Of a stretch of DNA of 64,000 nt, positions 14,179-35,973 are shown piece by piece. Position 1 is the stretch's first letter. Each line of letters begins with the position of its first letter. The stretch is from Sporomusa termitida (GTDB lineage Bacteria; Bacillota; Negativicutes; Sporomusales; Sporomusaceae), in NCBI RefSeq assembly GCF_007641255.1, contig NZ_CP036259.1, positions 1,550,001 to 1,614,000 of the forward strand, given 5' to 3'. Made by a program: the position numbers and the translations under genes. Below the pieces are notes generated by a model. The model had not been told where the DNA came from, searched no databases, and worked only from the letters and a program-made list of their open reading frames with translations.

Positions 14179-14229
14179 TAAGTAATCAGCAGGGATGAAG
14201 AAGCACTGCTTCTTAAAAAGGAGGTACTT

Positions 14230-14775
14230 ATGGAGAAGTTAAGCCACTTTGTTGTTGGGGACGGAACAAAATGCATAGGCTGTAAAGCCTGTGAGGTTGC
14301 CTGTCATGCGTCCCATAGTGTAAACGGTATTACGGCAGGCAATATCGACACACCGGTATTCCCCAAGTTATTTGTTACCCGCGTGGAAGAAGTGACTGTT
14401 CCGGTGCAATGCCACCATTGTGAGGATGCGCCCTGTGCTCAGGCTTGTCTTGAGAAGGCCATTTATTTTGCCGGCGACAAGGTACTCATTGATACAGACA
14501 AATGTAAAGCTTGCAAAGATTGTCTGATGGCCTGTCCGTTTGGCGCAGTAGAGCTTGTTTCCCAATTTGTCAACGGCGAGGAAGTAATTCAGGAGAATTT
14601 AAAAAAGCCGCGCATGTATGCCAACAAATGTGATTTGTGCGATACCCGGAAGCAAGGACCGATTTGCGTTGAGGTATGCCCAAAACAGGCATTGCGTCTA
14701 GTAGATCCACACAAAGAGAAAAAAGAAAAAAATAGAAAAGCTGTCGCTACGATTGTGGGCATGTTTAAAAAATAG
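14230..14775 (+). CDS. hycB2: HycB-type four-cluster ferredoxin subunit of HDCR (HycB2-like)
   Basis: The 181-residue iron-sulfur protein has four [4Fe-4S] cysteine sets: CIGCKACEVAC, CHHCEDAPCAQAC, CKACKDCLMAC and CDLCDTR with CVEVC. This is the HycB/DmsB-like electron-wire family. It lies between fdhF and hydA2 and should bridge the two active sites. The lysine-rich C-terminal helix (HKEKKEKNRK) is notable because C-terminal helices of HycB-type subunits help build HDCR filaments. Ribosome site AAGGAGG is well placed before the ATG. Confidence 0.88.
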   Translation: MEKLSHFVVGDGTKCIGCKACEVACHASHSVNGITAGNIDTPVFPKLFVTRVEEVTVPVQCHHCEDAPCAQACLEKAIYFAGDKVLIDTDKCKACKDCLMACPFGAVELVSQFVNGEEVIQENLKKPRMYANKCDLCDTRKQGPICVEVCPKQALRLVDPHKEKKEKNRKAVATIVGMFKK

Positions 14776-14787
14776 GAGGTGAATTTC

Positions 14788-16158
14788 ATGCAATATACAG
14801 TTGAGATTGATCAGGAATTATGTACCGGCTGTCATCGCTGTATTGATGTTTGCCCTGTTGGCGCTATTGGAGGACCGGCAGGAATGGCGGCAGATATCAA
14901 TTATGATAAATGCTGTTTCTGTGGTCAATGTGTTCAGATTTGCAGTGCTTATCAAGAATATAAATCAGAAACTTCGGCACCGCGTGAAACCAAGATGAAG
15001 GATCGAGGCCTATTGGCTAGTGTCAGGGAACCGCTATTTGCGGCCCACAACATGGGACACGCGCAGAAGGTATGGGAAGCTATCAATAACCCTAATGTTG
15101 TAACAATGGTCCAATGTGCACCCGCTGTCAGGGTTGGCTTGGCCGAAGATTTTGGTGTAGCGTCCGGTGAACTGGTTGCCGGGAAAATGATTACTGCTTT
15201 AAGAAAATTAGGCTTCGATCGAGTATATGATACCAATTTTACAGCTGATCTGACAATTATGGAAGAAGGCAGTGAGTTAATTAAACGGATCCAGGAAAAT
15301 GGTGTATTGCCCATGTTTACTTCCTGCTGTCCGGCCTGGGTTAAATATGTAGAACAAGAACATTTTGAACTTCATGAAAACCTGTCTACCTGCAAGTCTC
15401 CGCAGCAAATGGCCGGCGCTTTGTTTAAGACTTATGGCGCCCAGGTTGACAAACTGGAGCCTAAGAAAATAGTCAGTGTATCAGTTATGCCCTGTACTGC
15501 CAAAAAATTTGAGGCTTCCCGGCCGGAAATGAATGCAAGCGGCAGTCAGGATGTTGATCTTGTTCTGACAACCAGAGAATTGGCAAATTTAATTAAACAT
15601 GCCGGTATTGATTTTAAAAGCCTTAAGCCGAGCCAGCCTGACTCTGTACTGGGGACTTATACAGGGGCCGGTCATATATTTGGGGTTACCGGCGGGGTTA
15701 TGGAAGCCGCCCTGCGTACAGGGTATGAATTGATTACCGGCAACCCTCTTGATGATATCAATATCCTGGATGTACGGCATAGCCAGGGCGTAAAACGTGC
15801 TACGCTCCAGGTGGGCGATTTGGCTGTTAAAACCGTTGTAGTGGCCGGACTGGAAAATGCAGCGCCAATCATCGATGAGATTAAAAATGGTACTGCTGAT
15901 TTCCATTTTGTCGAAGTTATGGCTTGTCCTCAAGGCTGTATCAGTGGCGGCGGCCAGCCCAAGGTTCTGTTAGAAACTGAACGCAAGCAGGTTTACGCCA
16001 GCCGTATGGCCTCCATGTACAAACATGATGAGGAGCTACCGCTGAGAAAATCGCATGACAACCCTGAAATAACCAAGGTCTATAAAGATTTTCTGGGCAA
16101 GCCACTGGGGCATAAATCCCATGAATTATTGCACACCCATTATTGCCGGAGGGGATAA
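14788..16158 (+). CDS. hydA2: [FeFe]-hydrogenase catalytic subunit HydA2 of HDCR
   Basis: The 456-residue protein carries an N-terminal two-[4Fe-4S] domain (CTGCHRCIDVC, CCFCGQCVQIC) and the H-cluster domain with TSCCPAW (about residue 178), MPCTAKK (about 234) and ACPQGCISGGG (about 380). Gln replaces the usual Gly in the third motif. It lacks the N-terminal [2Fe-2S] domain of the NAD-linked HydA proteins here, as expected for an enzyme wired to HycB subunits. ATG 14788, eight bases after AGGAGG, is chosen over the GTG at 14779 inside the ribosome site. It supplies or takes electrons for CO2/formate conversion. Confidence 0.92.
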   Translation: MQYTVEIDQELCTGCHRCIDVCPVGAIGGPAGMAADINYDKCCFCGQCVQICSAYQEYKSETSAPRETKMKDRGLLASVREPLFAAHNMGHAQKVWEAINNPNVVTMVQCAPAVRVGLAEDFGVASGELVAGKMITALRKLGFDRVYDTNFTADLTIMEEGSELIKRIQENGVLPMFTSCCPAWVKYVEQEHFELHENLSTCKSPQQMAGALFKTYGAQVDKLEPKKIVSVSVMPCTAKKFEASRPEMNASGSQDVDLVLTTRELANLIKHAGIDFKSLKPSQPDSVLGTYTGAGHIFGVTGGVMEAALRTGYELITGNPLDDINILDVRHSQGVKRATLQVGDLAVKTVVVAGLENAAPIIDEIKNGTADFHFVEVMACPQGCISGGGQPKVLLETERKQVYASRMASMYKHDEELPLRKSHDNPEITKVYKDFLGKPLGHKSHELLHTHYCRRG

Positions 16159-16161
16159 ACA

Positions 16162-16668
16162 ATGCTGAATACAGCTTTTGTTATCGGTAATCCTGACTTA
16201 TGCATTGGCTGTCGCACCTGTGAAATTGCCTGCGTTATGGCACATACCAATAAAGTACTAGGCACCGAAGCGATTAAGGATGTGCCGTTCGTACCCCGCT
16301 TGTCGGTGGTAAAGACAGAAGATATCAGTGTTCCTGTTCAGTGTCGCCAATGTGAGGATGCCCCTTGTGCTGAAGCCTGTCCGGAAAAGGCAATTGTACA
16401 GCGGGGTCAAATAATTTATGTGCTTGCCGACAAATGTGTCGGCTGTAAAAACTGTATTATGGCCTGCCCGATAGGCGCAGTCTATTTAACCTGGGTTGAA
16501 GATAAGCCCTGGCAAAAAACTGCTTATAAATGTGATTTGTGCATTGAATTACCTGATGGGCCGCAGTGTGTAAAAAAATGCCCGACAAAAGCACTGTCGG
16601 TAGTTTTGCCTGATGAAATTGAAAAGAGTATTAAGCAAAAACGCGTAAACGTTGTAAGAGCTGTATAA
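16162..16668 (+). CDS. hycB3: HycB-type four-cluster ferredoxin subunit of HDCR (HycB3-like)
   Basis: The 168-residue protein again has four [4Fe-4S] sets (CIGCRTCEIAC, CRQCEDAPCAEAC, CVGCKNCIMAC, CDLC with CVKKC). It starts three bases after hydA2 and ends the operon. In A. woodii two such subunits form the nanowire core of the HDCR filament. Which of the two here corresponds to HycB2 or HycB3 is assigned only by order and by the tail after the last cluster, which is a plausible helix. Confidence 0.85.
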   Translation: MLNTAFVIGNPDLCIGCRTCEIACVMAHTNKVLGTEAIKDVPFVPRLSVVKTEDISVPVQCRQCEDAPCAEACPEKAIVQRGQIIYVLADKCVGCKNCIMACPIGAVYLTWVEDKPWQKTAYKCDLCIELPDGPQCVKKCPTKALSVVLPDEIEKSIKQKRVNVVRAV

Positions 16669-16745: not shown

Positions 16746-19430
16746 TTAATCAGGTGCTATAATTTTTTCAACTTTTATAGCACACACTTTATATTCATAT
16801 GTTTTCGTTACTTTATCAACTGCGCTGCTGGTTATTTCGTTAGTTGGACAGGCTGCAAAGTGGAAGGACATCCAGATTACGCCAGGTGGGACGCGGTCTG
16901 TTACCCAGGACTTAGCTTGTACCTGGCCCCGGCGGGATGAGATTCTAATTGTTTCCATATCCTGGATATCTAACCGGTTCGCATCGTCAGGATGAATCAT
17001 AACCCGTTCTTCAGAGCGATAATCAGTGAGCGTTTTGGAATAGCCAGGTGTAGTAATATTATAATGGTAGAGGATACGCCCGGTGCTCAGCAAGAAGGGA
17101 TAATCAGCGTCAGGTGATTCTCCCGGCGGTTGATGCTCTATCGGCTTAAACACGCCGAGACCGCAGGCGAATTTACCGCCAGCATGAAGGTATTGTGTAC
17201 CCGGATGTTCTTTATGAGGAACAGGCCATTGTAAACCCTGCTCATCGATACGTTCATAAGAAACGCCGGCATATATCGGACTTAGTGAGGCCATTTCATC
17301 CATAATTTCACTCGGATGGTTGTAAGTCATGGAATAGCCCATTTTATTCGATAAGTCTCGAATAATTTGCCAGTCAGGGCGGCTATTGCCGATTGGATTA
17401 ATGGCTTGCCGGACACGCTGGATACGGCGTTCGGTATTAGTGAATGTACCGTCTTTTTCGGCAAATGAAGCACCTGGAAGCACGACATCAGCCAACTTTG
17501 CTGTTTCTGTCATAAATAGATTTTGGACTACTAGAAATTCGAGATGTTTCAGCCCTTTAATTACATGATGAGCATCAGAATCGGTCAATACCGGATCTTC
17601 GCCCATGACGTACATGGCTTTTAGTTTACCGCTAATAGCAGCATCAAACATATCCGGAATCATCATACCCGCCTGTTCAGGCAGCTTGACGCCCCAGGCT
17701 TTTTCAAATTTTTCCCGGGAAGCCGGATCGGTTACTTTCTGGTAGCCGGAGTAGACGTTTGGCAGAGCCCCTTGATCACAGGCTCCCTGGACGTTATTCT
17801 GGCCGCGCATCGGGTTTACGCCAGAATTAAGCTTGCCAATATTACCTGTCATCATCGTTAAATTAGCCAGGCTCATGACATTGTCGGTACCGCAAACATG
17901 TTCAGTAATTCCTAAGGTATAAAATATTTGGGCGCGTTCAGCCGTGCCATAGATTCTGGCTGCTGCTTTCAACAAATGCTGAGGTACACCTGTAATTGTT
18001 TCAACATATTCCGGCGTATATTTTTCCACTGTTTCGACTACTTTTTCAAAGTCAACTGTGCAGGATTCAATAAACTTCTGGTCATGCCAGCCGGATTTTA
18101 AAATAATATGCATCAAGCCGTTGATAAGCGCAATATCGGTACCTGGTTTCAGCCGCAGCCATACATGCGCTTTGCCGGCAAGTTCGGTTTTCCGTGGATC
18201 AACGACAATCAATTGGGCGCCATTACGGAGTGCCTGACGCATTTTTGCCCCAATTACAGGATGGGCTTCGGTTGGGTTGGAGCCGATAACAAATAAAACC
18301 TTACTCTGGGGTATTTCGTTGATTGAGTTTGTCATTGCCCCTGATCCAAATGAGGTGGCCAGACCGGCCACAGTAGGGGCGTGTCAGGTACGGGCGCAGT
18401 GATCAATATTGTTGGTGCCAATCACTGCGCGCATAAATTTTTGCATCAGATAGTTTTCTTCGTTAACACAACGGGCCGAACTGAGGGCCGCCAGAGCGTC
18501 GCCGCCATGGGCATTTTTTATAGCGGCAAATCTGGCGGTAATTAAGTCCAGTGCTTCATCCCAGGTAGCCGCCACAAAGTCACCGTCTTTTTTGATTAAC
18601 GGTGTTGTCAGACGCTCCGGGCTGTGGACATAGTCAATACCAAACCGGCCTTTTACACAAGTGAGCCGGCCATTAACCGCACTGGTCAGATTTGAGGTTA
18701 CCCCAATAACCTTATCGTCCTTGACATTCAGATCGAAATTGCAGCCAACACCGCAGAAGGGACAGGTTGTTTTAACTTTTTTATCCGGCAAGCCGGCATG
18801 CCTCATGGGTTTTTCCGTCAGGGCGCCTACCGGGCAGGCAGAAACGCAGGTGCCGCAAAAAACGCAGCTCGATTCAGGCATGGGCACATCAAAAGCGGGT
18901 GCTATTTTTGTATCAAAGCCCCGGTTCGTCCATTCGAGGACATCGCAGCACTGTACCTGCTGGCAAACCCGGACGCACCGGCCGCAGAGGATGCATTTAT
19001 TATTATCTCTGATAATAAAGGGATTACTGTCATCAACGGCATATTCGCGGCGTTCGCCGGTAAAACGGATTTCCCGGATTCCCAGATTGTTTGCCAGCGT
19101 TTGCAGCTCGCAATCCAGGTTGCGCTGACAGGAAAGGCAGTCCTGGGGGTGGTTGGCCAGCATCAGTTCAATTACACTTTTGCGGGCTTCACGGATAGCG
19201 GCTGAGTTGGTCCGTACAACCAGTCCCGCCGATGCCGGATAGGTACACGCCGTGACCAGCCCGCGTGCGCCTTCCACTTCGACAACACAGACCCGGCAGG
19301 CTCCTTCCGGGGTTAAGTCGGCAAGGTGGCACAAGGTTGGGATCCGGACGCCGGCGTTGCGGGCCGCTTCCAGCACGGTAGAGCCTTCAGGGGTTTCAAT
19401 GATTTGCCCGTCAATTGTCAATCTGATCAT
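16746..19430 (-). CDS. fdhA: Formate dehydrogenase FdhA with N-terminal ferredoxin domains, selenocysteine-containing
   Basis: With the in-frame TGA at 18386-18384 read as selenocysteine (residue 349), the product has 894 residues. Order: [2Fe-2S] domain (CRVCVVE), His/Cys [4Fe-4S] segment (HPQDCLSC), two [4Fe-4S] motifs (CILCGRCVRVC, CVFCGTCVSAC), the catalytic [4Fe-4S] (CPFCGVGC), then CART-Sec-HAPTVAG and the bis-MGD domains. This is the architecture of the NAD(P)-linked FdhA of Moorella, which needs a NuoF-like FdhB, yet no flavin subunit is encoded next to it. It could use HydB/HydC-type partners encoded elsewhere or ferredoxin directly. It converges on the HDCR operon. Confidence 0.93.
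18355..18386 (-). promoter_or_regulatory. SECIS element of fdhA
   Basis: Twelve bases past the UGA on the minus strand, GTGGCC and GGCCAC pair around a GGTCT loop. Stem length, spacing and loop are the same as in the fdhF SECIS, with one stem pair changed by compensating bases. Confidence 0.85.
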
Positions 19431-26295: not shown

Positions 26296-26362
26296 TACAA
26301 ACAATATTACTAATTATGAATATTATTGGGGGGATAATCCCCTTAATTTTTTATATAAAATA

Positions 26363-26380
26363 TTGTGAAATTTCGCACAA
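26363..26380. promoter_or_regulatory. Rex operator upstream of the hydrogenase-sensing cluster
   Basis: TTGTGAAATTTCGCACAA has perfect TTGTG/CACAA half sites around eight bases, the Rex-box pattern. It follows an AT-rich TATAAAATATT stretch that may be the -10 region and lies 26 bases before the first DRTGG gene. A rex gene is encoded in the same region. Confidence 0.75.
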
Positions 26381-26406: not shown

Positions 26407-26769
26407 TTGAAACTGGCCCAAATACAAAAGGTCCTGGAGGCTGAGGTGCTCTGTGGAGTAGAGTTGCTTGACCAGGAAGCGAAATGTGCTTGCGGATCAG
26501 ACCTGATGAGTGATGTCTTGGCCTTTACTAAAGAGCGGGCTATCTTATTGACAGGGCTGACCCACATTCAGGTTATCCGTACTGCGGAAATGAGTGATTT
26601 GGCAGGCATAATATTTGTCCGTGGCAAACGTCCGGGGCCGGAGGTCATTATAATGGCCCGGGAAATGGGAATACCGCTGTTGCTGACTCAGCGGCAGATG
26701 TACGAAGCTTGTGGCATTTTGTACAAGGATGGGCTGATAGGATCGTCATTAAAGGAGGAAACTCTGTGA
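26407..26769 (+). CDS. DRTGG domain protein, first copy
   Basis: The 120-residue protein matches the DRTGG domain family (KLAQIQKVLEAEVLCG at the start; GIIFVRGKRPGPEVIIMARE; IPLLLT near the end). DRTGG domains also occur beside CBS domains and in phosphotransacetylases and are thought to have regulatory ligand-binding roles. It starts at TTG after GGGAGGT and opens a five-gene module leading to the second hydCBA set. Function not established; a sensing or partner-binding role is inferred from context. Confidence 0.72.
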   Translation: MKLAQIQKVLEAEVLCGVELLDQEAKCACGSDLMSDVLAFTKERAILLTGLTHIQVIRTAEMSDLAGIIFVRGKRPGPEVIIMAREMGIPLLLTQRQMYEACGILYKDGLIGSSLKEETL

Positions 26770-27194
26770 CACCCGAACAAGGCTTAACGCTGGAGTTTGC
26801 ACTGACCGGTGCGGATTTTAATAGTGCCGGCGAGGCTTCAAGCAAAATTAAGCGTACACTGCAACTGCTGGGGATTCGGCCGGATATTATCAGGCGAATT
26901 GCCATCAGTGCTTATGAAGCGGAAATGAATGTCATCATTCATGCGTACCGCGGCTCGATCAGGGCCGACATTCACCCTAATCGCACCGAGGTGACTGTGG
27001 CCGATGAAGGCCCGGGAATCCCGGATATTGAGCTGGCGATGAAAGAGGGATATTCAACGGCGCCGGATTATGTCCGGGAGATGGGCTTTGGTGCCGGCAT
27101 GGGCCTGCCGAACATGGCACGTTGTACAGATAAATTTGATATTAAAACCGAAGCCGGAGTGGGAACACAACTTAGTATGACCATCTATCACTAA
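26766..27194 (+). CDS. RsbW-like histidine-kinase-fold ATPase
   Basis: The 142-residue stand-alone GHKL ATPase domain has an N-box EAEMNVIIHAY near residue 50, G1 box DEGPGIPD near 80 and G2 box GFGAGMGLPNM near 105. There is no dimerisation/phosphoacceptor or receiver domain, as in anti-sigma factor/serine kinases of the RsbW/SpoIIAB type. GTG 26766 is chosen: GGAGG lies just ahead and it overlaps the DRTGG stop. It may phosphorylate or sequester a partner protein; the target is not evident, as no sigma factor or STAS antagonist is encoded nearby. Confidence 0.8.
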   Translation: MTPEQGLTLEFALTGADFNSAGEASSKIKRTLQLLGIRPDIIRRIAISAYEAEMNVIIHAYRGSIRADIHPNRTEVTVADEGPGIPDIELAMKEGYSTAPDYVREMGFGAGMGLPNMARCTDKFDIKTEAGVGTQLSMTIYH

Positions 27195-27245
27195 GTCCGA
27201 CTTTGTTTATGATTAGAGTATGTACAGTTTGGTGGTGAAAAAGCG

Positions 27246-28592
27246 GTGGCAGAACGATACCATTCGGTTCGCCTGACGGATGAGAAATGTCAGGGCTGTG
27301 TGAACTGCACTAGGCGGTGCCCTACGGAAGCTATCCGCATTCGCGGCGGCAAGGCGCAAATAACATCTTCGCGATGTATTGATTGTGGCGAATGTATCCG
27401 CTACTGTCCGGGACATGCCAAGACAGCAGTGACCGATGAGCTTGCCGACCTGAAAAAATATAAATATAATATTGCCCTGCCTGCCCCCAGCCTCTATGGC
27501 CAGTTTAGTGTGGACATTCCGGTAAGGGCTATCCTGTCGGGGTTGTTAAAGCTTGGCTTTAATGAAGTTTTTGAGGTGGCTCATGGAGCCGAAATTGTGT
27601 CCCTTGCCATCCGAGATCACTTAAAACGTAAGGATATCCCCAGGCCGGCAATCTCGTCAGCCTGTCCGGCTATCGTCCGGCTGATTCAGGTAAAATACCC
27701 TGAACTTATCGATCATCTGGCACCCTTTGACGCCCCGGTCGAGGTTGCGGCAAGATTGGCGCGGGCGGAGGCTGAAGAACTGCCGGGCCTCACACCGGAA
27801 AACATCGGTGTATGGTTTATAACGCCGTGTCCGGCGAAGATGACGGCAGTATATCAGCCGCTGGGAGCAGAAAAATCTAATATTACCGGGGCGATCGCAA
27901 TTAGTAAAATTTATCCCGCTTTATTAAAAGTAGTGACTGCCGAACTTCAGGATGCCAGGCGTCAGGCCTCCTGGGTAGGGGTTGGCTGGGCCGTTTCCGG
28001 CGGTGAAACCAATTCGGTTGGCGCGGACAATGTCTTAATCGTTCATGATGTTCACCATGTTGCCAATGTATTGGAGCAAGTGGCCTTAGGCAAACTCAAG
28101 GATGTCGATTATATCGAGATGCTGGCCTGTGCCGGCGGCTGTATTGGCGGCCCTTTAACTGTTGAAAACCGGTATGTCGCCGAACACCGGATGAAACAGC
28201 GTATTTCCAGGAAAAAGATGGAGGACCCTAAATTTGGCAGACTGCCGCGGACCGATTACTCGGAGTTCGAACTTGGGGTAGCCGGACGCCGGGCCATAGA
28301 GCCCAAACCGATATTGCGCCTTGATGCTGATATTACCAAAGCCATGAATAAAATAGAATTTATGGACCGGACTTTAAAGAGTCTGCCGGGACTGGATTGC
28401 GGCTCCTGCGGCTCGCCCAATTGCAAGGCTTTGGCGGAAGATATTGCTCAGGGACTAGCCAGTATGACCGACTGCGTATTTATCCTCCGGAAAAAGGTCC
28501 GGGATTTGGCGTATGAAATGGTTGACCTGGCAGATAAGCTGCCGCCGCCGCTTGATAAAAACCAGGAGTATGAGGAGAAGGAAAAATGTTAG
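27246..28592 (+). CDS. HydS-like putative sensory [FeFe]-hydrogenase with C-terminal Fe-S domain
   Basis: The 448-residue protein has two N-terminal [4Fe-4S] motifs (CQGCVNCTRRC, CIDCGECIRYC), an H-cluster-type domain and a C-terminal CGSCGSPNC cluster near residue 386. The H-cluster motifs deviate: SSACPAI (about 137) has Ala where catalytic enzymes have the proton-relay Cys; TPCPAK (about 196); LACAGGCIGG (about 294). The Cys-to-Ala change is the mark of putative sensory [FeFe] hydrogenases such as Thermotoga maritima HydS. There is no PAS or kinase domain, so output must go through neighbours (ATPase, DRTGG, PHP). H2 or redox sensing is inferred. Confidence 0.8.
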   Translation: MAERYHSVRLTDEKCQGCVNCTRRCPTEAIRIRGGKAQITSSRCIDCGECIRYCPGHAKTAVTDELADLKKYKYNIALPAPSLYGQFSVDIPVRAILSGLLKLGFNEVFEVAHGAEIVSLAIRDHLKRKDIPRPAISSACPAIVRLIQVKYPELIDHLAPFDAPVEVAARLARAEAEELPGLTPENIGVWFITPCPAKMTAVYQPLGAEKSNITGAIAISKIYPALLKVVTAELQDARRQASWVGVGWAVSGGETNSVGADNVLIVHDVHHVANVLEQVALGKLKDVDYIEMLACAGGCIGGPLTVENRYVAEHRMKQRISRKKMEDPKFGRLPRTDYSEFELGVAGRRAIEPKPILRLDADITKAMNKIEFMDRTLKSLPGLDCGSCGSPNCKALAEDIAQGLASMTDCVFILRKKVRDLAYEMVDLADKLPPPLDKNQEYEEKEKC

Positions 28593-28604
28593 GAGGATCT
28601 AAGA

Positions 28605-28946
28605 GTGACTGTTGAAGAATTAATTACACTACTGCCGCTGACAGTCGTGTCAGGGCAGTCCAAGCTTGGTCATGAAATTACCGGCGGTTACGTTTCAGAC
28701 CTGCTGAGCAATGTTATGGGGCAGGCCTGTGCCGGCAATGTCTGGGTTACTATGCAGGGACATCAGAATATCGTGGCAGTTGCATCTCTGACAGGACTGG
28801 CAGCGGTTATTATTGCCGGCGGCGTTAAGCTTGACAAGGATGCTGCCGGCAAGGCCGAGTCAGAAGAAATAGTGATTCTGAGTACGCTGCTTTCCTCTTT
28901 TGAGATAACAGGACGTTTATATCAGTTGGGGATTGCCGGAAAATGA
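28605..28946 (+). CDS. DRTGG domain protein, second copy
   Basis: The 113-residue protein is a second DRTGG-family member (MTVEELITLLPLTVVSG; GGYVSDLLSNVMG; LAAVIIAGG). It is distinct in sequence from the first copy, so the module holds a diverged pair flanking the HydS-like gene. It starts at GTG after AGGAGG, 13 bases after the HydS-like stop, and overlaps the PHP gene by four bases. Function not established. Confidence 0.7.
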   Translation: MTVEELITLLPLTVVSGQSKLGHEITGGYVSDLLSNVMGQACAGNVWVTMQGHQNIVAVASLTGLAAVIIAGGVKLDKDAAGKAESEEIVILSTLLSSFEITGRLYQLGIAGK

Positions 28947-29686
28947 TGCGTCGGTTTGTGGCGGATCTGCATGTCCATACGCTGTTATCACCGTGTGCGG
29001 CTGTCGAAATGACGCCGCGCAATATTGTGTGGCAGGCTGTGGACCATAAGATTGATATTATTGCCATTACTGACCATAATGCCTGCGATAATGTTCCTGC
29101 AGCCCTGGAAGCCGCCAAAGGCACAACTGTTACTGTCCTGTTAGGCATGGAGGTCGAAAGCAGGGAAGAAGTGCATCTGCTTGTCTTATTTGATAAAATG
29201 AGGCAAATGAAAGAATGGGAGTTATTTACCAAAGCCCATATGTCAGGGCGCCTTAATGATGCTGCCCGGTTTGGCGCCCAGTTCATCGTCGATGCCGATG
29301 ATAATTTTATAGCCGAAAAAAATGAACTTTTATTATCTTCCCTGACGGCCGGGGTTGCTGAAATCTCTGCACAAGTAAAACGCTTAGGCGGCATATGTAT
29401 TGCCAGTCATATCGACAGGCCTGTATATAGCATTATTTCGCAACTGGGGTTTATTCCGCCTGATGTTGAGTTGGCAGCAGTCGAAGTATCAAGGCACATG
29501 AATGCGCAAGATGCGTCTGTCCGTATTCCTGCTATTGGCGACCTGCCTGTAATAACTGCCTCAGACGCTCATGTCATGGAAGACTTTATCAACGGCCCGA
29601 AAACGGCTTTTTATCTTGAACAGCCAACAGTGGGCGAAATCCGGCAGGCATTATTATCTCAAAATTTACGAAGGGTGGTGGTGTAA
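28943..29686 (+). CDS. PHP domain phosphoesterase
   Basis: The 247-residue PHP-family protein shows metal-site motifs DLHVHTLLSPC near residue 7, ITDHN near 39, a central GMEVESREEVHLL and ITASDAHV near 205. PHP proteins hydrolyse phosphoesters such as nucleotides or phosphorylated metabolites. Inside this cluster it might turn over a small-molecule or phosphate signal linked to the HydS-like protein. Substrate unknown. Near-identical gene sets sit beside hydABC in other anaerobes, as I recall. Confidence 0.78.
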   Translation: MMRRFVADLHVHTLLSPCAAVEMTPRNIVWQAVDHKIDIIAITDHNACDNVPAALEAAKGTTVTVLLGMEVESREEVHLLVLFDKMRQMKEWELFTKAHMSGRLNDAARFGAQFIVDADDNFIAEKNELLLSSLTAGVAEISAQVKRLGGICIASHIDRPVYSIISQLGFIPPDVELAAVEVSRHMNAQDASVRIPAIGDLPVITASDAHVMEDFINGPKTAFYLEQPTVGEIRQALLSQNLRRVVV

Positions 29687-29744
29687 ACCACTGATACACT
29701 AAGCTTGCCAGTGACTAGTAATTTTTTCATAAGGAGGATGTAAC

Positions 29745-30251
29745 ATGAACAGCGATAAGGAAACCAAATGCTGCTGTGGCGGCGGTGAAGCAGGCAAGTT
29801 AGCGCTTGACCAACTGGATGTGATACTTGCAAAATATCAGGGGGTAAAAGGGGCTCTCATCCCCGTACTGCAGGAAGCGCAACATGCCTACGGCTACCTG
29901 CCTAAAGAAGTAATCCAGGCTATTGCGGAAAAAATGGCGATTCCTGTCAGTCAAATTTATGGTGTAGTAACTTTCTATTCTCAATTTCATTTAAATCCCC
30001 GGGGAAAAAATATTATCCGTGTCTGCCAGGGGACTGCCTGCCATGTACGTGGTGCCAAGGCAATCCTCACTATGCTGGAAGAGAATTTAAGCGTCAAAGC
30101 CGGCGGCACTACCCCTGATCTTAAGTTTACGTTAGAAACAGTAGCCTGCATCGGTGCCTGCGGGTTGGCTCCAGTGTTAATGGTTAATGATGATACCCAC
30201 GGCCGGTTGACTACGCAACTAATACCTGAAATCCTGGCTAGATACGCCTAA
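29745..30251 (+). CDS. hydC: [FeFe]-hydrogenase subunit HydC (NuoE-like), second cluster
   Basis: The 168-residue thioredoxin-fold [2Fe-2S] subunit has CQGTAC near residue 93 and CIGACGLAP near 134. It begins the second hydrogenase gene set, preceded by AAGGAGG. An N-terminal CCCGGG stretch (residues 9-14) is unusual for the family. Together with the full-length HydB and HydA below it should form a bifurcating HydABC enzyme. Confidence 0.9.
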   Translation: MNSDKETKCCCGGGEAGKLALDQLDVILAKYQGVKGALIPVLQEAQHAYGYLPKEVIQAIAEKMAIPVSQIYGVVTFYSQFHLNPRGKNIIRVCQGTACHVRGAKAILTMLEENLSVKAGGTTPDLKFTLETVACIGACGLAPVLMVNDDTHGRLTTQLIPEILARYA

Positions 30252-30259
30252 TAACTGCT

Positions 30260-30814
30260 ATGCGTGAACTATCACTCCATATCCTGGATTTAGTGCAAAA
30301 CTCGCTTGAAGCCGGGGCTAATATTGTTAAACTTGAAGTTATTGAAGATCTGTCAGCCGATGTTTTAGTTATCCGCGTGGCTGATAACGGGCGGGGTATG
30401 GATGAGAAGCTCCGTCAACTTGTAATTGACCCTTTTGTTACTACCAGGTTGACACGACGCGTTGGCTTAGGACTGCCGTTAATGGAGATGTCGACCAAAC
30501 GCTGTGACGGATATTTGAAAATACAATCAACACCAGGCCAAGGGACAATAATAGAGGCAAGTTATCGTCATCATCATCTGGACCGACCTCCATTAGGTAA
30601 CATAGTAGAGACAATTAAGACAATTCTTGTTGCTAACCCCACATTGAACTTTTTGTATCGTCATACTGTCAATGACAGAAAATTTACTGTTTCTTCGCAG
30701 GAGTTAGCCGATATCCTGGATGGTGTACCGCTAACCCAACCAGATATATTAATCTGGCTTCATAAATACTTGTCCGATCATATAGCTAATTTGTACGGAG
30801 GTGTCGAAAAGTGA
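30260..30814 (+). CDS. GHKL ATP-binding protein in the hydrogenase operon
   Basis: The 184-residue protein has a GHKL ATPase fold: N-box LVQNSLEAGAN near residue 9, G1 VADNGRGMD near 41, G2 VGLGLPLM near 69. The C-terminal half is divergent. It lacks phosphoacceptor and sensor domains. Such a gene lies between hydC and hydB in several clostridial hydABC operons; its role is unknown and regulation or assembly of the hydrogenase is plausible. No clear ribosome site precedes the ATG, so translation may be coupled to hydC nine bases upstream. Confidence 0.75.
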   Translation: MRELSLHILDLVQNSLEAGANIVKLEVIEDLSADVLVIRVADNGRGMDEKLRQLVIDPFVTTRLTRRVGLGLPLMEMSTKRCDGYLKIQSTPGQGTIIEASYRHHHLDRPPLGNIVETIKTILVANPTLNFLYRHTVNDRKFTVSSQELADILDGVPLTQPDILIWLHKYLSDHIANLYGGVEK

Positions 30815-31176
30815 AAACATTAGAAGATTTAAAACGCCTACGGGAACAGCTTAAGACCAAAAATACTGTGCGCCACGAAGGTGGCATCCAAATTATTGTG
30901 GGCATGGGTACTTGCGGAATAGCAGCCGGCGCCCGTCAAGTGATGACCGCTATTTTAGATGAGATTGCCAAGCAAAATCTGCAGACGGTTAAGATAAGCC
31001 AGACCGGCTGTATTGGCATGTGTGAGAAAGAAGTGCTGGTGGATGTTGTTCGCCCTAATGAACCGAGGATAACCTATGGCCGCGTTACAGTAGACGACAT
31101 CCCTAAAATTATTTCTGAGCATATCGTTAACGGTCGTATTGTTGCAGAGCTTGCTATTGGCAAATTCACTGAATAA
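30811..31176 (+). CDS. Thioredoxin-like [2Fe-2S] ferredoxin protein in the hydrogenase operon
   Basis: The 121-residue protein has the thioredoxin-like [2Fe-2S] pattern: GMGTCGIAAGA near residue 30 and QTGCIGMCEKE near 66. It is similar to the N-terminal domain of the full-length HydB downstream (GTGCVSSGS, TGCHGFCEMG). It starts at GTG overlapping the ATPase gene, with GGAGG eight bases ahead. Probably an electron-transfer accessory subunit of HydABC. Confidence 0.8.
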   Translation: MKTLEDLKRLREQLKTKNTVRHEGGIQIIVGMGTCGIAAGARQVMTAILDEIAKQNLQTVKISQTGCIGMCEKEVLVDVVRPNEPRITYGRVTVDDIPKIISEHIVNGRIVAELAIGKFTE

Positions 31177-31212
31177 ATATATAATCTTGCTAGAATAACG
31201 GGAGGGGATAAT

Positions 31213-33003
31213 ATGGAACGCATAAGAGCGCATGTGCTCCTTTGCGCCGGTACTGGTTGTGTGTCTTCAGGTTCGAAAAAAGTTGAAGCAGCCTTCCAGC
31301 AGGAACTGGCTAAAAAAGGCTTAGATAAAGAGGTAAAAATTATTGAGACCGGTTGCCATGGCTTCTGCGAAATGGGGCCGCTGGTCATTATTTATCCGGA
31401 AGGAACTTTCTATGTCCGGGTTCAGGAAGAAGATGTGGCAGAACTTGTTGAAACCCATTTGTTTAAGGGGCGTATTGTAGAACGGCTGTTGTATAAAGAA
31501 CCGATCAGTCATGAAAAGATCCCCAGTTATAATGATATTGTTTTTTATAAGAAACAGATGCGATATGTACTGGCCAACTGCGGACACATTGACCCTGAAG
31601 ATATTAACGAGTATATTGCTGAAGGCGGTTACGAAGGCCTTGGTAAAGCTCTCTCGGAATTGAAGCCGGCCGACGTTGTGGCGGAAATAAAAAAATCCGG
31701 GCTCAGGGGCCGGGGCGGCGGTGGTTTCCCGACCGGTATGAAGTGGGAGTTCACCCGCAATGCTCCCGGTACTAAAAAATATGTGGTATGTAATGCCGAC
31801 GAAGGTGATCCCGGTGCCTTTATGGACCGCAGTGTGCTTGAAGGCGACCCTCATCGACTCATTGAAGGCATGGCTGTCTGTGGTTATGCTATTGGGGCCG
31901 ACGAAGGTTATGTATATGTCCGGGCCGAGTATCCGCTGGCGATTAAACGCCTTAGAATTGCGATTAAGCAAGCTGAGGAAATAGGGTTATTAGGTGACAA
32001 CATTTTAAGTTCCGGTTTTAATTTCAGACTGAAAATCAAGGAAGGGGCCGGCGCCTTTGTGTGTGGTGAGGAAACCGCCCTGATTGCGTCAATTGAGGGC
32101 AAGCGCGGTATGCCGCGTCCCCGTCCGCCGTTCCCTGCCGTTTCCGGTTTGTGGGGCAAGCCTACCAATATCAACAATGTGGAGACTTTTGGCAATGTAC
32201 CGCAGATTATTACCAAAGGTGCGGACTGGTATGCCTCAATCGGCACCGAACGCAGCAAGGGCACTAAAGTATTTGCCCTTACCGGCCGGATTAATAATAC
32301 CGGTTTAGCAGAAGTTCCCATGGGTATCAGCATGCGGGAAATTATTTATGAAATTGGCGGCGGCATACCTAACGAGAAAAAGTTTAAGGCTGTGCAAATC
32401 GGCGGCCCGTCCGGCGGCTGTCTGCCGGAAAACATGCTCGATCTGCCTGTAGATTATGATTCTCTTATCAAGGCCGGGGCAATGATGGGATCCGGCGGCC
32501 TGGTTGTTATGGACGAAACCACCTGCATGGTTGACGTTGCCAAGTTCTTCCTCAATTTCACCCAGTCCGAGTCCTGCGGTAAATGCACACCCTGCCGTGA
32601 AGGGACTAAACGCATGCTGGAGATTCTTACCCGCATAACCGATGGGCTGGGTCGTCCCGGTGATATTGCACTGCTTGAATCAATGGCGAAAAATATTAAA
32701 ACCACCGCCTTGTGCGGCCTTGGTCAAACGGCCCCCAATCCGGTACTTTCCACCCTGCGCTATTTCCGTGATGAATATGAAGCCCATATTCATGATCAAC
32801 GCTGCCCGGCCGGGGCTTGCACCAATCTGCTGCAGTACAACATTACCGATACTTGTAAGGGCTGCGGTCTGTGCAAAAAGGTATGCCCGGCTGAAGCTAT
32901 TAGTGGTGAGGTCAAGGCGCAGCATGAGATTGATTTGTCCAAGTGTATCAAATGCGGTGCCTGTATTGCTAAATGTCCGTTTAAATCAATTGTTAAAGCC
33001 TAA
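31213..33003 (+). CDS. hydB: [FeFe]-hydrogenase subunit HydB (NuoF-like), full-length bifurcating type
   Basis: The 596-residue subunit has, in order: an N-terminal thioredoxin-like [2Fe-2S] domain (residues 1-100), the NuoF core with FMN/NADH motifs (LRGRGGGGFPTG, NADEGDPGAFMD) and SCGKCTPCREG near 456, then CPAGAC and a C-terminal two-[4Fe-4S] ferredoxin domain (CKGCGLCKKVC, CIKCGACIAKC). This is the domain set of HydB in electron-bifurcating hydrogenases, which couple NADH and reduced ferredoxin oxidation to H2. The first cluster's HydB lacks both ends. Confidence 0.93.
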   Translation: MERIRAHVLLCAGTGCVSSGSKKVEAAFQQELAKKGLDKEVKIIETGCHGFCEMGPLVIIYPEGTFYVRVQEEDVAELVETHLFKGRIVERLLYKEPISHEKIPSYNDIVFYKKQMRYVLANCGHIDPEDINEYIAEGGYEGLGKALSELKPADVVAEIKKSGLRGRGGGGFPTGMKWEFTRNAPGTKKYVVCNADEGDPGAFMDRSVLEGDPHRLIEGMAVCGYAIGADEGYVYVRAEYPLAIKRLRIAIKQAEEIGLLGDNILSSGFNFRLKIKEGAGAFVCGEETALIASIEGKRGMPRPRPPFPAVSGLWGKPTNINNVETFGNVPQIITKGADWYASIGTERSKGTKVFALTGRINNTGLAEVPMGISMREIIYEIGGGIPNEKKFKAVQIGGPSGGCLPENMLDLPVDYDSLIKAGAMMGSGGLVVMDETTCMVDVAKFFLNFTQSESCGKCTPCREGTKRMLEILTRITDGLGRPGDIALLESMAKNIKTTALCGLGQTAPNPVLSTLRYFRDEYEAHIHDQRCPAGACTNLLQYNITDTCKGCGLCKKVCPAEAISGEVKAQHEIDLSKCIKCGACIAKCPFKSIVKA

Positions 33004-33071
33004 GGCTGCTTAAAATAGCTACTGCCCATTACAAACACTAGACTGAGTGAAAAAGAGAGGGTGACACGAAA

Positions 33072-34799
33072 ATGGAAATGGTTAATTTAACAATCGATGG
33101 ACAAAAGGTTTCTGTGCCTAAAACATCGACTGTTCTGGAAGCGGCAAATTCGCTGGGAATAAAAGTGCCGACTTTGTGCTATCATCCTGAACTGCGTGTG
33201 GAAGGGGCCTGCCGGGTGTGCATGGTAGAAGTTGAAGGCGCCCGCAGTTTGGTTGCGTCCTGCGTGTATCCTGTAAATGAAGGCATGGTTGTCCGGACGA
33301 ATACAGCAGATGTGCGTGAAGCCCGGAAAATGGTGGTCGAGCTTCTACTGGCCAACCACCCGACAGAGTGCTTGGCCTGCCAGCGTAACTTAAACTGTGA
33401 ACTCCAGAATATGGCAGCCGATCTGGGAGTCAGAGAAATCCGGTTTGACGGCGACAAGAAAAATTATCCGCTGGACGATAAAAATCCGTCTTTGGTCCGC
33501 GATCAAAGCAAATGTATTTTATGCGGCCGCTGCATCCGGGCTTGCAGTGAACGGCAAGGGGTTCATGTGTATAGCTTTGCTAACCGGGGTTTTAACACAA
33601 CGGTTGTACCGGCCTTTAATCTGGGCTTAGATGAAGTGGCATGCACCTACTGCGGTCAGTGTGCGGCTGTGTGTCCGACCGGCGCTATTGTCGAAAAAGA
33701 CGATACCGAAGCGGTATGGCAGGCTATCGGTGATCCAGCGAAGCATGTCATTGTTCAAACGGCTCCCGCTGTACGGGTGGCTTTAGGTGAAGCACTAGGG
33801 CTGCCTCATGGTACAATCGTTACCGGCAAGATGGTGTCAGCTTTAAAACGGCTGGGCTTTAACAAGGTTTTTGATACAGATTTTACTGCTGACCTTACTA
33901 TCTGGGAAGAAGGTTCAGAATTTATCGACCGCCTGAGCAATGGTGGCAAGCTGCCGATGATTACCTCCTGCAGCCCGGGCTGGGTTAACTTCATTGAATT
34001 AAAATATCCCGATCTGCTGGATCATCTGTCCTCTGCCAAATCACCGCAACAGATGTTTGGTGCATTGGCTAAAACTTATTATGCCGAAAAGGCCGGCATT
34101 GATCCTAAGGATATTGTCTCTGTATCCATCATGCCGTGTACAGCCAAAAAAGCGGAGGCCGCCCGGCCGGAGATGAATTCCAGCGGCTATCAGGATGTTG
34201 ACTATGTCCTGACAACCCGTGAATTATCCCGGATGATCCGTGCCGCCGGCTTAACCTTTGCAACTCTGGAAGAGGCCGAATTCGACGCTCCGCTTGGTAT
34301 TGGCTCAGGGGCCGGCGTAATCTTTGGTGCTACCGGCGGGGTTATGGAAGCTGCCCTCCGGACGGTTGTGAAACTGGTTACAGGCAATGAGCTTGATAAT
34401 ATTGAGTTCCATACCGTTCGCGGCATGACTGGCATTAAAGAGGCTGAGGTGCCGGTAAAAGAAGGCTTAACAGCTAAAGTTGCCGTAGCTCACACTTTGG
34501 CCAATGCCCGTGTGCTGCTTGATAAAATTCGCGCCGGTGAGGCTGATTATCACTTTATTGAAATAATGGCTTGCCCCGGCGGTTGTTCAGGCGGCGGCGG
34601 CCAGCCGATCATTACGTCTGCTGAACACCGGCAAAAACGTATTGATGCCATTTATGAATGTGATAAGTGCTCTACTCTGCGGAAATCGCATGATAATCCG
34701 GCTGTTGCCGAACTATATGAGAGCTGGCTGGGTAAACCGCTGGGTGAAAAGTCGCACCATCTGCTGCATACTCACTATCATCCACAAAAGAAATGTTAA
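33072..34799 (+). CDS. hydA: [FeFe]-hydrogenase catalytic subunit HydA, second cluster
   Basis: The 575-residue protein has the same domain order as the first HydA: [2Fe-2S], His/Cys [4Fe-4S] (HPTECLAC), two [4Fe-4S] (CILCGRCIRAC, CTYCGQCAAVC), and the H-cluster domain with TSCSPGW (about 298), MPCTAKK (about 354) and ACPGGCSGGGG (about 500). Ser replaces the second Cys of motif one, as in the other NAD-linked HydA here. It ends the operon and is followed by a strong terminator. Confidence 0.94.
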   Translation: MEMVNLTIDGQKVSVPKTSTVLEAANSLGIKVPTLCYHPELRVEGACRVCMVEVEGARSLVASCVYPVNEGMVVRTNTADVREARKMVVELLLANHPTECLACQRNLNCELQNMAADLGVREIRFDGDKKNYPLDDKNPSLVRDQSKCILCGRCIRACSERQGVHVYSFANRGFNTTVVPAFNLGLDEVACTYCGQCAAVCPTGAIVEKDDTEAVWQAIGDPAKHVIVQTAPAVRVALGEALGLPHGTIVTGKMVSALKRLGFNKVFDTDFTADLTIWEEGSEFIDRLSNGGKLPMITSCSPGWVNFIELKYPDLLDHLSSAKSPQQMFGALAKTYYAEKAGIDPKDIVSVSIMPCTAKKAEAARPEMNSSGYQDVDYVLTTRELSRMIRAAGLTFATLEEAEFDAPLGIGSGAGVIFGATGGVMEAALRTVVKLVTGNELDNIEFHTVRGMTGIKEAEVPVKEGLTAKVAVAHTLANARVLLDKIRAGEADYHFIEIMACPGGCSGGGGQPIITSAEHRQKRIDAIYECDKCSTLRKSHDNPAVAELYESWLGKPLGEKSHHLLHTHYHPQKKC

Positions 34800-35133: not shown

Positions 35134-35186
35134 GGCTTCTGCCGGCGGCCTAAAGGACTTGGCATAAGCCAAGTTTTTCTAATTTT
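35134..35186 (+). repeat. Left copy of the rex-flanking inverted repeat
   Basis: This 53-bp stretch recurs inverted at 35966-36017 on the other side of rex with about 46 matches. It holds two hairpins, CCGGC/GCCGG and CTTGGC/GCCAAG; the second is followed by TTTTT and can act as a terminator ahead of rex. Confidence 0.65.
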
Positions 35187-35328: not shown

Positions 35329-35973
35329 ATGAAAGAACACAAAGAGAATGCGGTGATCTCTAAAGCAACGATTGATAGACTGCCGCTTTATTATCGGTAC
35401 CTTAAACTAAGTCAGGAGGAAGGGATTGAGATTATATCCTCTGACGAATTGGGGCGGAAAATTGGCGTTACACCGGAGCAGATACGCAAAGATTTATCCG
35501 CTTTTGGTGAGTTTGGCAAAAAAGGTGTTGGCTATTACGTGCGCGAGCTTACGCGCAATATCGGCGAAATACTGGGACTCAACCGTCAGTGGAATATAGC
35601 TATTGCCGGTGTGGGGCACCTGGGCTGGGCTTTGGCCAATTATGCTAATTTTTCGCCCCAGGGATTTCAATTGCAGGCTATTTTTGATATTGATCCAGAT
35701 AAAATCGGGCGATATATTAATGAAATCGAAATTTTTCATATTGCCAGAATACCGGAAATCATTGCTGCCAGGAATATTCAAATCGGGATAGTAACGGTGC
35801 CGGCCGAATACGCCCAGGACATCACTACAAGCTATGTTGAGGCCGGAATTAAAGGTATCTGGAATTTTGCGCCGATAAAGCTTGAAGTCCCCACAACTGT
35901 CCATGTAGTCAGTGAAGACCTGTCAATAGGCTTAAGCAGTATGTCATATTATCTTTCCCGCCAATTATATTAG
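35329..35973 (+). CDS. rex: Redox-sensing transcriptional repressor Rex
   Basis: The 214-residue repressor has an N-terminal winged helix (LPLYYRYLKLSQEEG; TPEQIRKDLSAFGEFGKKGVGYYV) and a Rossmann domain with GVGHLGWALANY near residue 90. Rex binds NAD(H) and releases its operators when NADH rises. The gene stands alone between inverted repeats; the right repeat begins inside its last codons. The likely target is the operator at 26363-26380 in front of the hydrogenase-sensing cluster. RBS before the ATG is AGGGAGAG. Confidence 0.95.
   Translation: MKEHKENAVISKATIDRLPLYYRYLKLSQEEGIEIISSDELGRKIGVTPEQIRKDLSAFGEFGKKGVGYYVRELTRNIGEILGLNRQWNIAIAGVGHLGWALANYANFSPQGFQLQAIFDIDPDKIGRYINEIEIFHIARIPEIIAARNIQIGIVTVPAEYAQDITTSYVEAGIKGIWNFAPIKLEVPTTVHVVSEDLSIGLSSMSYYLSRQLY

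Follow-up and report, generated by a model that had tools for sequence, protein, structure and literature searches.

A stretch of 64,000 nucleotides from the 5.3 Mb genome of Sporomusa termitida, referred to here as the window, carries at positions 26407–29686 five genes arranged head to tail on the forward strand and followed by hydCBA. Together they form a conserved set around HydS, a group D (M2e) putative sensory [FeFe] hydrogenase. The first gene encodes DRTGG1 (26407–26769), a 120-residue DRTGG-domain protein (PF07085, 35.6 bits, E = 8.9e-9, cut-off 25.2). It is followed by a SpoIIAB/RsbW-like GHKL ATPase, a putative serine kinase (26766–27194, GTG start; PF13581, 45.9 bits), HydS itself (27246–28592; PF02906, 101 bits, and PF04060), a second, diverged DRTGG-domain protein, DRTGG2 (28605–28946; PF07085, 23.5 bits, below the cut-off), and a PHP-family metal-dependent phosphoesterase (28943–29686; PF02811, 45.7 bits). 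A sequence-only reading of this DNA had placed the same five genes before hydCBA at these positions; all are present, with the families assigned by Pfam and, for DRTGG2, by the AF2-predicted fold.

The co-directional unit runs DRTGG1–ATPase–HydS–DRTGG2–PHP–hydC–HATP2–[2Fe-2S] protein–hydB–hydA, and several adjacent genes overlap by a few bases. HydC (29745–30251; PF01257, 184 bits), a NuoE-like subunit of the bifurcating hydrogenase, is a likely regulated neighbour. HATP2 (30260–30814; PF02518) is a second GHKL ATPase, usually named as a histidine kinase, and is followed by a [2Fe-2S] thioredoxin-like ferredoxin of the hyd operon (30811–31176; NF041612, 44 bits, under the cut-off of 150). HydB (31213–33003) was assigned because the same family lies beside hydC and hydA across loci. 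HydA (33072–34799) is an NADH-dependent [FeFe] hydrogenase of group A6 (NF040763, 917 bits, cut-off 765) and matches HydA1 of 7q4v (E = 6e-202). Its motif TSCSPGW has Ser at the second Cys of the TSCCPGW of CpI, a feature common to 45 of 49 related HydA proteins and to HydA1 of 7q4v. The gene for the redox-sensing repressor Rex follows the unit (35329–35973; NF003995, 268 bits). In a consensus scan, the unit (26407–34799) is bracketed by two terminator-like hairpins, one at 26325–26347 on its 5′ side and one at 35153–35178 closing it on the forward strand. A putative Rex-like operator, TTGTGAAATTTCGCACAA, lies on the same strand at 26363–26380, 26 bp before DRTGG1. HATP2, the operator and the two hairpins had been missed by the sequence-only reading.

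HydS and its partner proteins

HydS has two ferredoxin-type [4Fe-4S] motifs at the N-terminus, followed by the H-domain and a C-terminal FeS domain (PF04060). In a column-wise alignment of 161 homologues, the H-cluster ligands C140, C195, C295 and C299 are invariant and all Cys residues of the N-terminal [4Fe-4S] clusters are kept. The four Cys residues of the C-terminal cluster (C385-x2-C388-x4-C393-x16-C410) are present in 160 of the 161. Variant relay motifs of the form SSIRP, obtained with a regular expression, proved false, as the column-wise alignment contains no ligand losses. In the motif SSACPAI the H-cluster Cys is retained and the proton-relay Cys (C299 of CpI) is replaced by Ala. 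This replacement, already taken as a hallmark from the sequence of HydS, is family-wide; the relay position is Ala in 141 homologues, Ser in 17, Thr in two and Tyr in one, and never Cys. The two methionine positions are occupied by Thr and Leu, and the Glu pair of the alternative proton path is present. No PAS domain was matched in HydS by Pfam at E values up to 1; HydS therefore lacks the fusion of PAS to the H-domain that defines group C. In the tree, HydS clades with the orthologue from Thermoanaerobacter wiegelii (21 members, support 0.93; locus L076), apart from group A and from the PAS- and MCP-linked types. Every defining sequence feature that we tested supports placing HydS, like TamHydS, among the putative sensory [FeFe] hydrogenases of group D (M2e).

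Other H-cluster proteins and altered copies of HydS were also encountered. HydS is split into two shorter frames in L172 and L174, and lies in fragments in L188 (genome G092), where the PHP match is short too; decay or an assembly frameshift is possible in each. A candidate H2 chemoreceptor, in which a chemotaxis MCP signalling domain is joined to an H-cluster protein, is encoded elsewhere in the S. termitida genome (L189:5833–7740) and at L089:11410–13320, where it adjoins a HydS–ATPase pair. The S. termitida genome also encodes a short H-domain protein of 371 residues near a TonB receptor gene (L190:6343–7455).

The best solved relatives of the small ATPase by profile are SpoIIAB (1til, E = 3e-12) and RsbW (6m36). 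Across 159 sequences the boxes YEAEMNVIIH, containing the catalytic Glu and Asn, and GFGAGMGLPN are conserved, with E70/N74, D99-x-GPG and GFGAGMGLPN at 94–100%. Judged by these relatives and residues, the protein very likely binds ATP, and serine-kinase activity is plausible. It does not pass the SpoIIAB equivalog model TIGR01925 (56 bits, cut-off 135).

The profile of DRTGG1 matches the DRTGG region of the CBS-pyrophosphatase 3l2b. S35 is invariant in this protein, and D32, T49, RGK-P and CG are near-invariant. The AF2 model of DRTGG2 (pLDDT 96.9) has the DRTGG fold, with Foldseek matches to the CBS-pyrophosphatase DRTGG domain 3l2b (2e-5), the N-domain of HPr kinase/phosphatase 1ko7 and AF1212 (2ioj); D32, S35 and T49 are invariant in 149 sequences. 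Of the motif that names the family, TG is retained in DRTGG1 and only T in DRTGG2, and DR is visible in neither. The predicted fold confirms DRTGG2 as a family member despite its sub-cut-off Pfam score, and the orthologue in L076 scores 29.1 bits against PF07085.

The metal ligands of the PHP protein (H10, H12, D44, H45, E70, H78, H156, D208 and H210) are conserved at about 99–100% in 141 sequences. Its nearest named families include nucleic-acid and nucleoside-bisphosphate phosphatases, with scores far under the cut-off. The active-site residues of HATP2 are conserved, as are those of the small ATPase, PHP and HydS. Pfam finds the HATPase domain only and no HisKA domain in HATP2, and no receiver domain in the module proteins, so that the set does not qualify as a two-component system. 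VIA-align and Foldseek place HATP2 with MutL- and histidine-kinase-type GHKL folds.

Gene order, fusions and sets without HydS

Conservation was assessed on 80 loci from named genomes, which are the best matches to the query and lean towards close relatives; divergent loci were added later, and most of these retain the module. At least 1.5 kb was available on both sides in 71 of the 80 loci, and 64 of these carry all five genes. Gene order was counted on 141 loci with enough flanking sequence, distant ones included. In 140 of these the gene for the small ATPase is immediately 5′ of HydS, and 128 have the five genes in complete order. Among 398 genomes of the phylum, 152 hold both HydS and PHP, 12 HydS only and four PHP only (Fisher p ~3e-89, a value that assumes independent genomes, which related ones are not). 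DRTGG is present in 163 of the 164 HydS genomes, and a HydS of group D type occurs in ~41% (165/398) of the sampled complete genomes. The linkage of the five families is not due to chance. A search for a conserved neighbourhood had been suggested with the original description of the locus, and it gave tight rather than sporadic linkage. The picture drawn there is supported, with a HydS-type sensory protein that has no output domain and whose linked companions are a GHKL ATPase, a pair of DRTGG proteins and a PHP phosphoesterase. The signalling set around HydS is more fixed and more widespread than has been recognised.

Natural fusions join neighbouring genes of the module. DRTGG1 and the ATPase form a single frame in seven loci from several genera (L042, L043, L049, L052, L063, L068, L162), HydS is fused to DRTGG2 in L046 and L064, the ATPase to HydS in L155, and PHP to HATP2 in L150, L166 and L168. 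Representative fusions were independently confirmed by Pfam. Assembly error is an unlikely source given the recurrence, except for L155, where it is possible. The fusions suggest that the joined proteins act together; they are evidence of joint function, not proof of contact, and physical contacts between the module proteins would be expected on this ground.

Several loci contain the module without HydS. DRTGG1–ATPase–DRTGG2–PHP–HATP2 is found in L169, L170, L171, L182 and L184, where the ATPase has ~146–180 additional N-terminal residues. In L171 this extension consists of CBS domains (Pfam); in the other four, the length points to CBS domains as well. CBS domains are also fused to the ATPase in the HydS-containing loci L041, L044 and L159 (Pfam). 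The order DRTGG1–DRTGG2–PHP–HATP2 occurs in L185, L186 and L187, preceded by rex in L185 and L187, and a minimal DRTGG1–ATPase–DRTGG2–HATP2 set in L193 and L194. L182 lies near Maf and MreBCD genes and L185 near Maf and RadC, with no hydrogenase alongside. Conversely, L180 and L183 hold the sensor half alone (DRTGG1–ATPase–HydS), and one DRTGG gene and HATP2 lie beside hydC in L196, L197 and L199. The HydS-less and smaller sets suggest a division into two halves, input and output, in each of which one GHKL ATPase goes with one DRTGG protein. They also suggest that the sensor can be swapped, being either HydS or, in HydS-less versions, of which at least one bears them, CBS domains. HATP2 adjoins PHP in the HydS-less modules. 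Because of this position and the PHP–HATP2 fusions, HATP2 belongs to the module, in its proposed output half, although it lies between hydC and hydB in S. termitida.

HydABC is the commonest neighbour of the module; of 45 long loci, 32 have hydB downstream in the same orientation and 13 do not. In the divergent loci L154, L156 and L159, Rnf takes the place of hydABC; RnfC, RnfD and RnfB-like proteins were identified by Pfam behind the module of L156, and the Rnf operons of L154 and L159 by clustering with L156. Among loci without hydABC, Rnf is the sole recurring neighbour, and tRNA synthetase, cell-wall and other genes look incidental. HydABC and Rnf are both ferredoxin/NAD enzymes. The earlier proposal, in which the purpose of the set is to tune the hydrogenase downstream of it, is not supported as worded, given the 13 loci where hydB does not follow in the same orientation, the three with Rnf and the HydS-less sets.

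The Rex-like site is the same or nearly the same before DRTGG1 in most close relatives. A strict site is present in 20 of 147 DRTGG1 upstream regions, as compared with 0.1% of mononucleotide shuffles. In ten loci rex itself lies directly before the module (L042, L043, L049, L052, L063, L068, L182, L184, L185, L187). No DNA-binding domain was found in any module protein scanned. Given this and the presence of Rex, control of enzyme activity by the module would be a simpler guess than transcriptional control.

The window encodes further H2 and formate enzymes. A cluster at 12037–16668 for an H2-dependent CO2 reductase (HDCR) comprises HydA2 (14779–16158; match to HDCR HydA2 7qv7, E = 1e-188), Fe-S proteins and a formate dehydrogenase with one in-frame TGA, a selenocysteine-like site (U140). 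A second formate dehydrogenase lies at 16749–19430 on the reverse strand, where a lone in-frame TGA (U349) divides the frame into two open reading frames.

Signalling model and alternatives

Gene content, order, co-occurrence, fusions, conserved active sites, the HydS-less versions and the Rex-like site are the direct basis for a model. We propose that the five genes and HATP2 form one conserved redox or H2 signalling system with two halves and the relay set out here, and regard the arguments for and against it as evenly balanced. The input half would consist of HydS, as a slow H2-binding group D H-cluster protein (or of CBS domains), beside the SpoIIAB-like ATPase paired with DRTGG1; in the output half DRTGG2 would pair with HATP2 and PHP. 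H2 or the redox state of HydS may alter the shape of HydS or its C-terminal [4Fe-4S] domain, which would set the activity of the small ATPase, and the ATPase would act on DRTGG1. A contact between DRTGG1 and DRTGG2 would carry the signal to the output half, where PHP may reverse or degrade it. The target would be the ferredoxin/NAD machinery, HydABC in S. termitida and Rnf in some lineages. The signal would be carried by phosphate or a small molecule, and protein phosphorylation is plausible. In its general form, the proposal is an undescribed signalling class in a large share of anaerobic Firmicutes, with paired GHKL-ATPase/DRTGG input and output units and an interchangeable sensor (H-cluster hydrogenase or CBS) governing ferredoxin/NAD enzymes such as HydABC and Rnf; the chance that this is correct is, in our estimate, about even.

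A number of observations weigh against this model. Only the ATPase and HydS are present in L079, L089, L120, L045, L048 and L051, so the other module genes are not obligatory in cis. Functional coupling could not be told apart from shared ancestry by mirror-tree distance correlations, in which only HATP2 correlated more strongly with PHP, the ATPase and HydS than it did with HydB and HydC. No STAS (SpoIIAA-like) substrate for the small ATPase was found among the window proteins scanned. Within the DRTGG proteins, Ser35 is invariant and Thr49 invariant or nearly so in both, yet a phospho-acceptor site is not claimed. Thr49 is probably the threonine of the family's own TGG and Ser35 may be a helix cap, and neither is a clear phospho-site. 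The model of HATP2 (pLDDT 90) is closest to MutL-type ATPases (Z about 13), nearer than to histidine kinases, and HATP2 may function as an ATP switch and not as a kinase. As a separate observation, genes for a sensor histidine kinase and a response regulator lie just upstream of the ATPase–HydS pair in L089 (5925–9355; both proteins by Pfam) and L120 (5937–9397; the response regulator by Pfam).

The chief rival to a phosphorylation relay is a nucleotide second messenger. DRTGG would bind an adenine nucleotide (ApnA or AMP/ATP), the GHKL ATPases would be nucleotide-gated switches, PHP would hydrolyse the messenger, and HydS or CBS would set its level or the response. This is possible, if rather unlikely. 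A CBS-pyrophosphatase whose structure was solved with AMP and Ap4A (PMC10742508, PMC7226116) is matched in its CBS/DRTGG region by both the DRTGG2 model and the DRTGG1 profile, and the CBS domains fused to the ATPase in L041, L044, L159 and L171 are adenine-nucleotide sensors. However, the module has no nucleotide-making enzyme, and the DRTGG motif is without its Asp-Arg part. The named relatives of PHP can be read either way, as they include nucleic-acid and nucleoside-bisphosphate phosphatases but are matched far under the cut-off.

Partner switching that acts on a transcription regulator such as a sigma factor, which the SpoIIAB-like ATPase would hold back and then free when H2 reduces HydS, we regard as unlikely. 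That the closest solved relatives of the ATPase are the anti-sigma factors SpoIIAB and RsbW speaks for it, as does the S. termitida gene for a PAS-type HydS that is followed by a SpoIIE-type serine phosphatase, the counterpart enzyme (L191). However, the genes beside the module include no recognisable sigma factor or STAS protein, the ATPase falls well short of the SpoIIAB equivalog cut-off, and Rex may already provide transcriptional redox control. It is highly improbable that HydS is an ordinary catalytic hydrogenase and that the other genes help to mature or assemble the Fe-S or H-cluster proteins of the hyd operon. Known H-cluster maturation is carried out by HydEFG, none of the 161 homologues has the proton-relay Cys, and versions without HydS are found near genes of the Maf, RadC or MreBCD type, away from any hydrogenase. 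These points stand against the intact Fe-S and H-cluster ligands of HydS and the catalytic competence of TamHydS (PMC8163306).

If the signalling model is right, the module would be a widespread point at which hydrogen production, electron bifurcation and the energy conservation linked to Rnf are controlled. It supplies named, nearly invariant candidate partners for transmission of the group D H2 signal, and the fusions suggest which of these proteins touch. The HydS-less versions show that the remaining module can exist independently. The open question of the signal output of sensory hydrogenases becomes testable.

Comparison with known systems

The group D HydS type and its location upstream of HydABC were already published by Land in 2020 (PMC8163306), and group D features are also treated in later work on TamHydS (PMC10407848, PMC13104023). 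TamHydS has increased H2 affinity and is catalytically competent (PMC8163306), and its secondary structure changes on H2 (PMC13104023); such turnover properties and a change induced by H2 are known for TamHydS alone. Its signalling partners and the transmission of the H2 signal were left open in 2020 (PMC8163306). A group D gene and a histidine kinase have been noted upstream of a bifurcating hydrogenase (PMC3608648), and the same operon in Halanaerobium has been given gene by gene, uninterpreted (PMC4237134). The statement of the sequence-only reading that no worked-out pathway is known stands, while the protein class and position, and the gene list from Halanaerobium, were already in print. 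We found no description of the module in the literature searched, which mostly does not extend to subscription papers, so an earlier description is possible, and nothing related that joins DRTGG with hydrogenase.

TamHydS (Thermoanaerobacter mathranii) is like HydS in having the H-cluster, two N-terminal [4Fe-4S] clusters, the C-terminal Cx2Cx4Cx16C motif and the Glu pair, and no PAS domain. Its gene likewise lies upstream of HydABC beside a histidine-kinase-like ATPase. The two proteins differ at one methionine position, Ser in TamHydS and Thr in HydS of the window, and in nothing fundamental. The TamHydS paper names an AraC regulator as the other neighbour, where the T. wiegelii locus has DRTGG2. 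No AraC domain is found at the T. wiegelii locus, where DRTGG1 and DRTGG2 match DRTGG-type families only. Judged from this locus rather than from that of T. mathranii, the AraC label is probably an automatic misname.

The small ATPase resembles SpoIIAB and RsbW as a stand-alone GHKL ATPase of ~140 residues with the catalytic Glu/Asn box. It differs in having no adjacent STAS protein or sigma factor, in its DRTGG and HydS partners and in scoring below the equivalog level. The CBS-DRTGG insert of family II pyrophosphatases shares the DRTGG fold and the combination of CBS with DRTGG, which in the module occurs in trans, with CBS on the ATPase in some loci. The module, however, has no DHH or DHHA2 catalytic domain, and each of its DRTGG domains makes up a small protein of its own that is paired with an ATPase. 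HPr kinase/phosphatase has an N-terminal DRTGG-like fold (1ko7, 1knx) and unites kinase and phosphatase functions in one system. The module does not have its catalytic domain, and the kinase-like GHKL and phosphatase-like PHP proteins are separate (PHP and HATP2 being fused in one family). The S. termitida genome has a PAS-containing HydS-type gene (L191:5186–6934) followed by a SpoIIE-type serine phosphatase (L191:4035–5180), as in HfsB-HfsC of Thermoanaerobacterium. The HfsB-HfsC pair, a group C HydS with a SpoIIE-type phosphatase (PMC11837493), resembles the module in placing a putative H2 sensor beside an enzyme of the partner-switching type; the group C protein has a PAS domain and a phosphatase, whereas group D has no PAS domain and is accompanied by a kinase-like ATPase.

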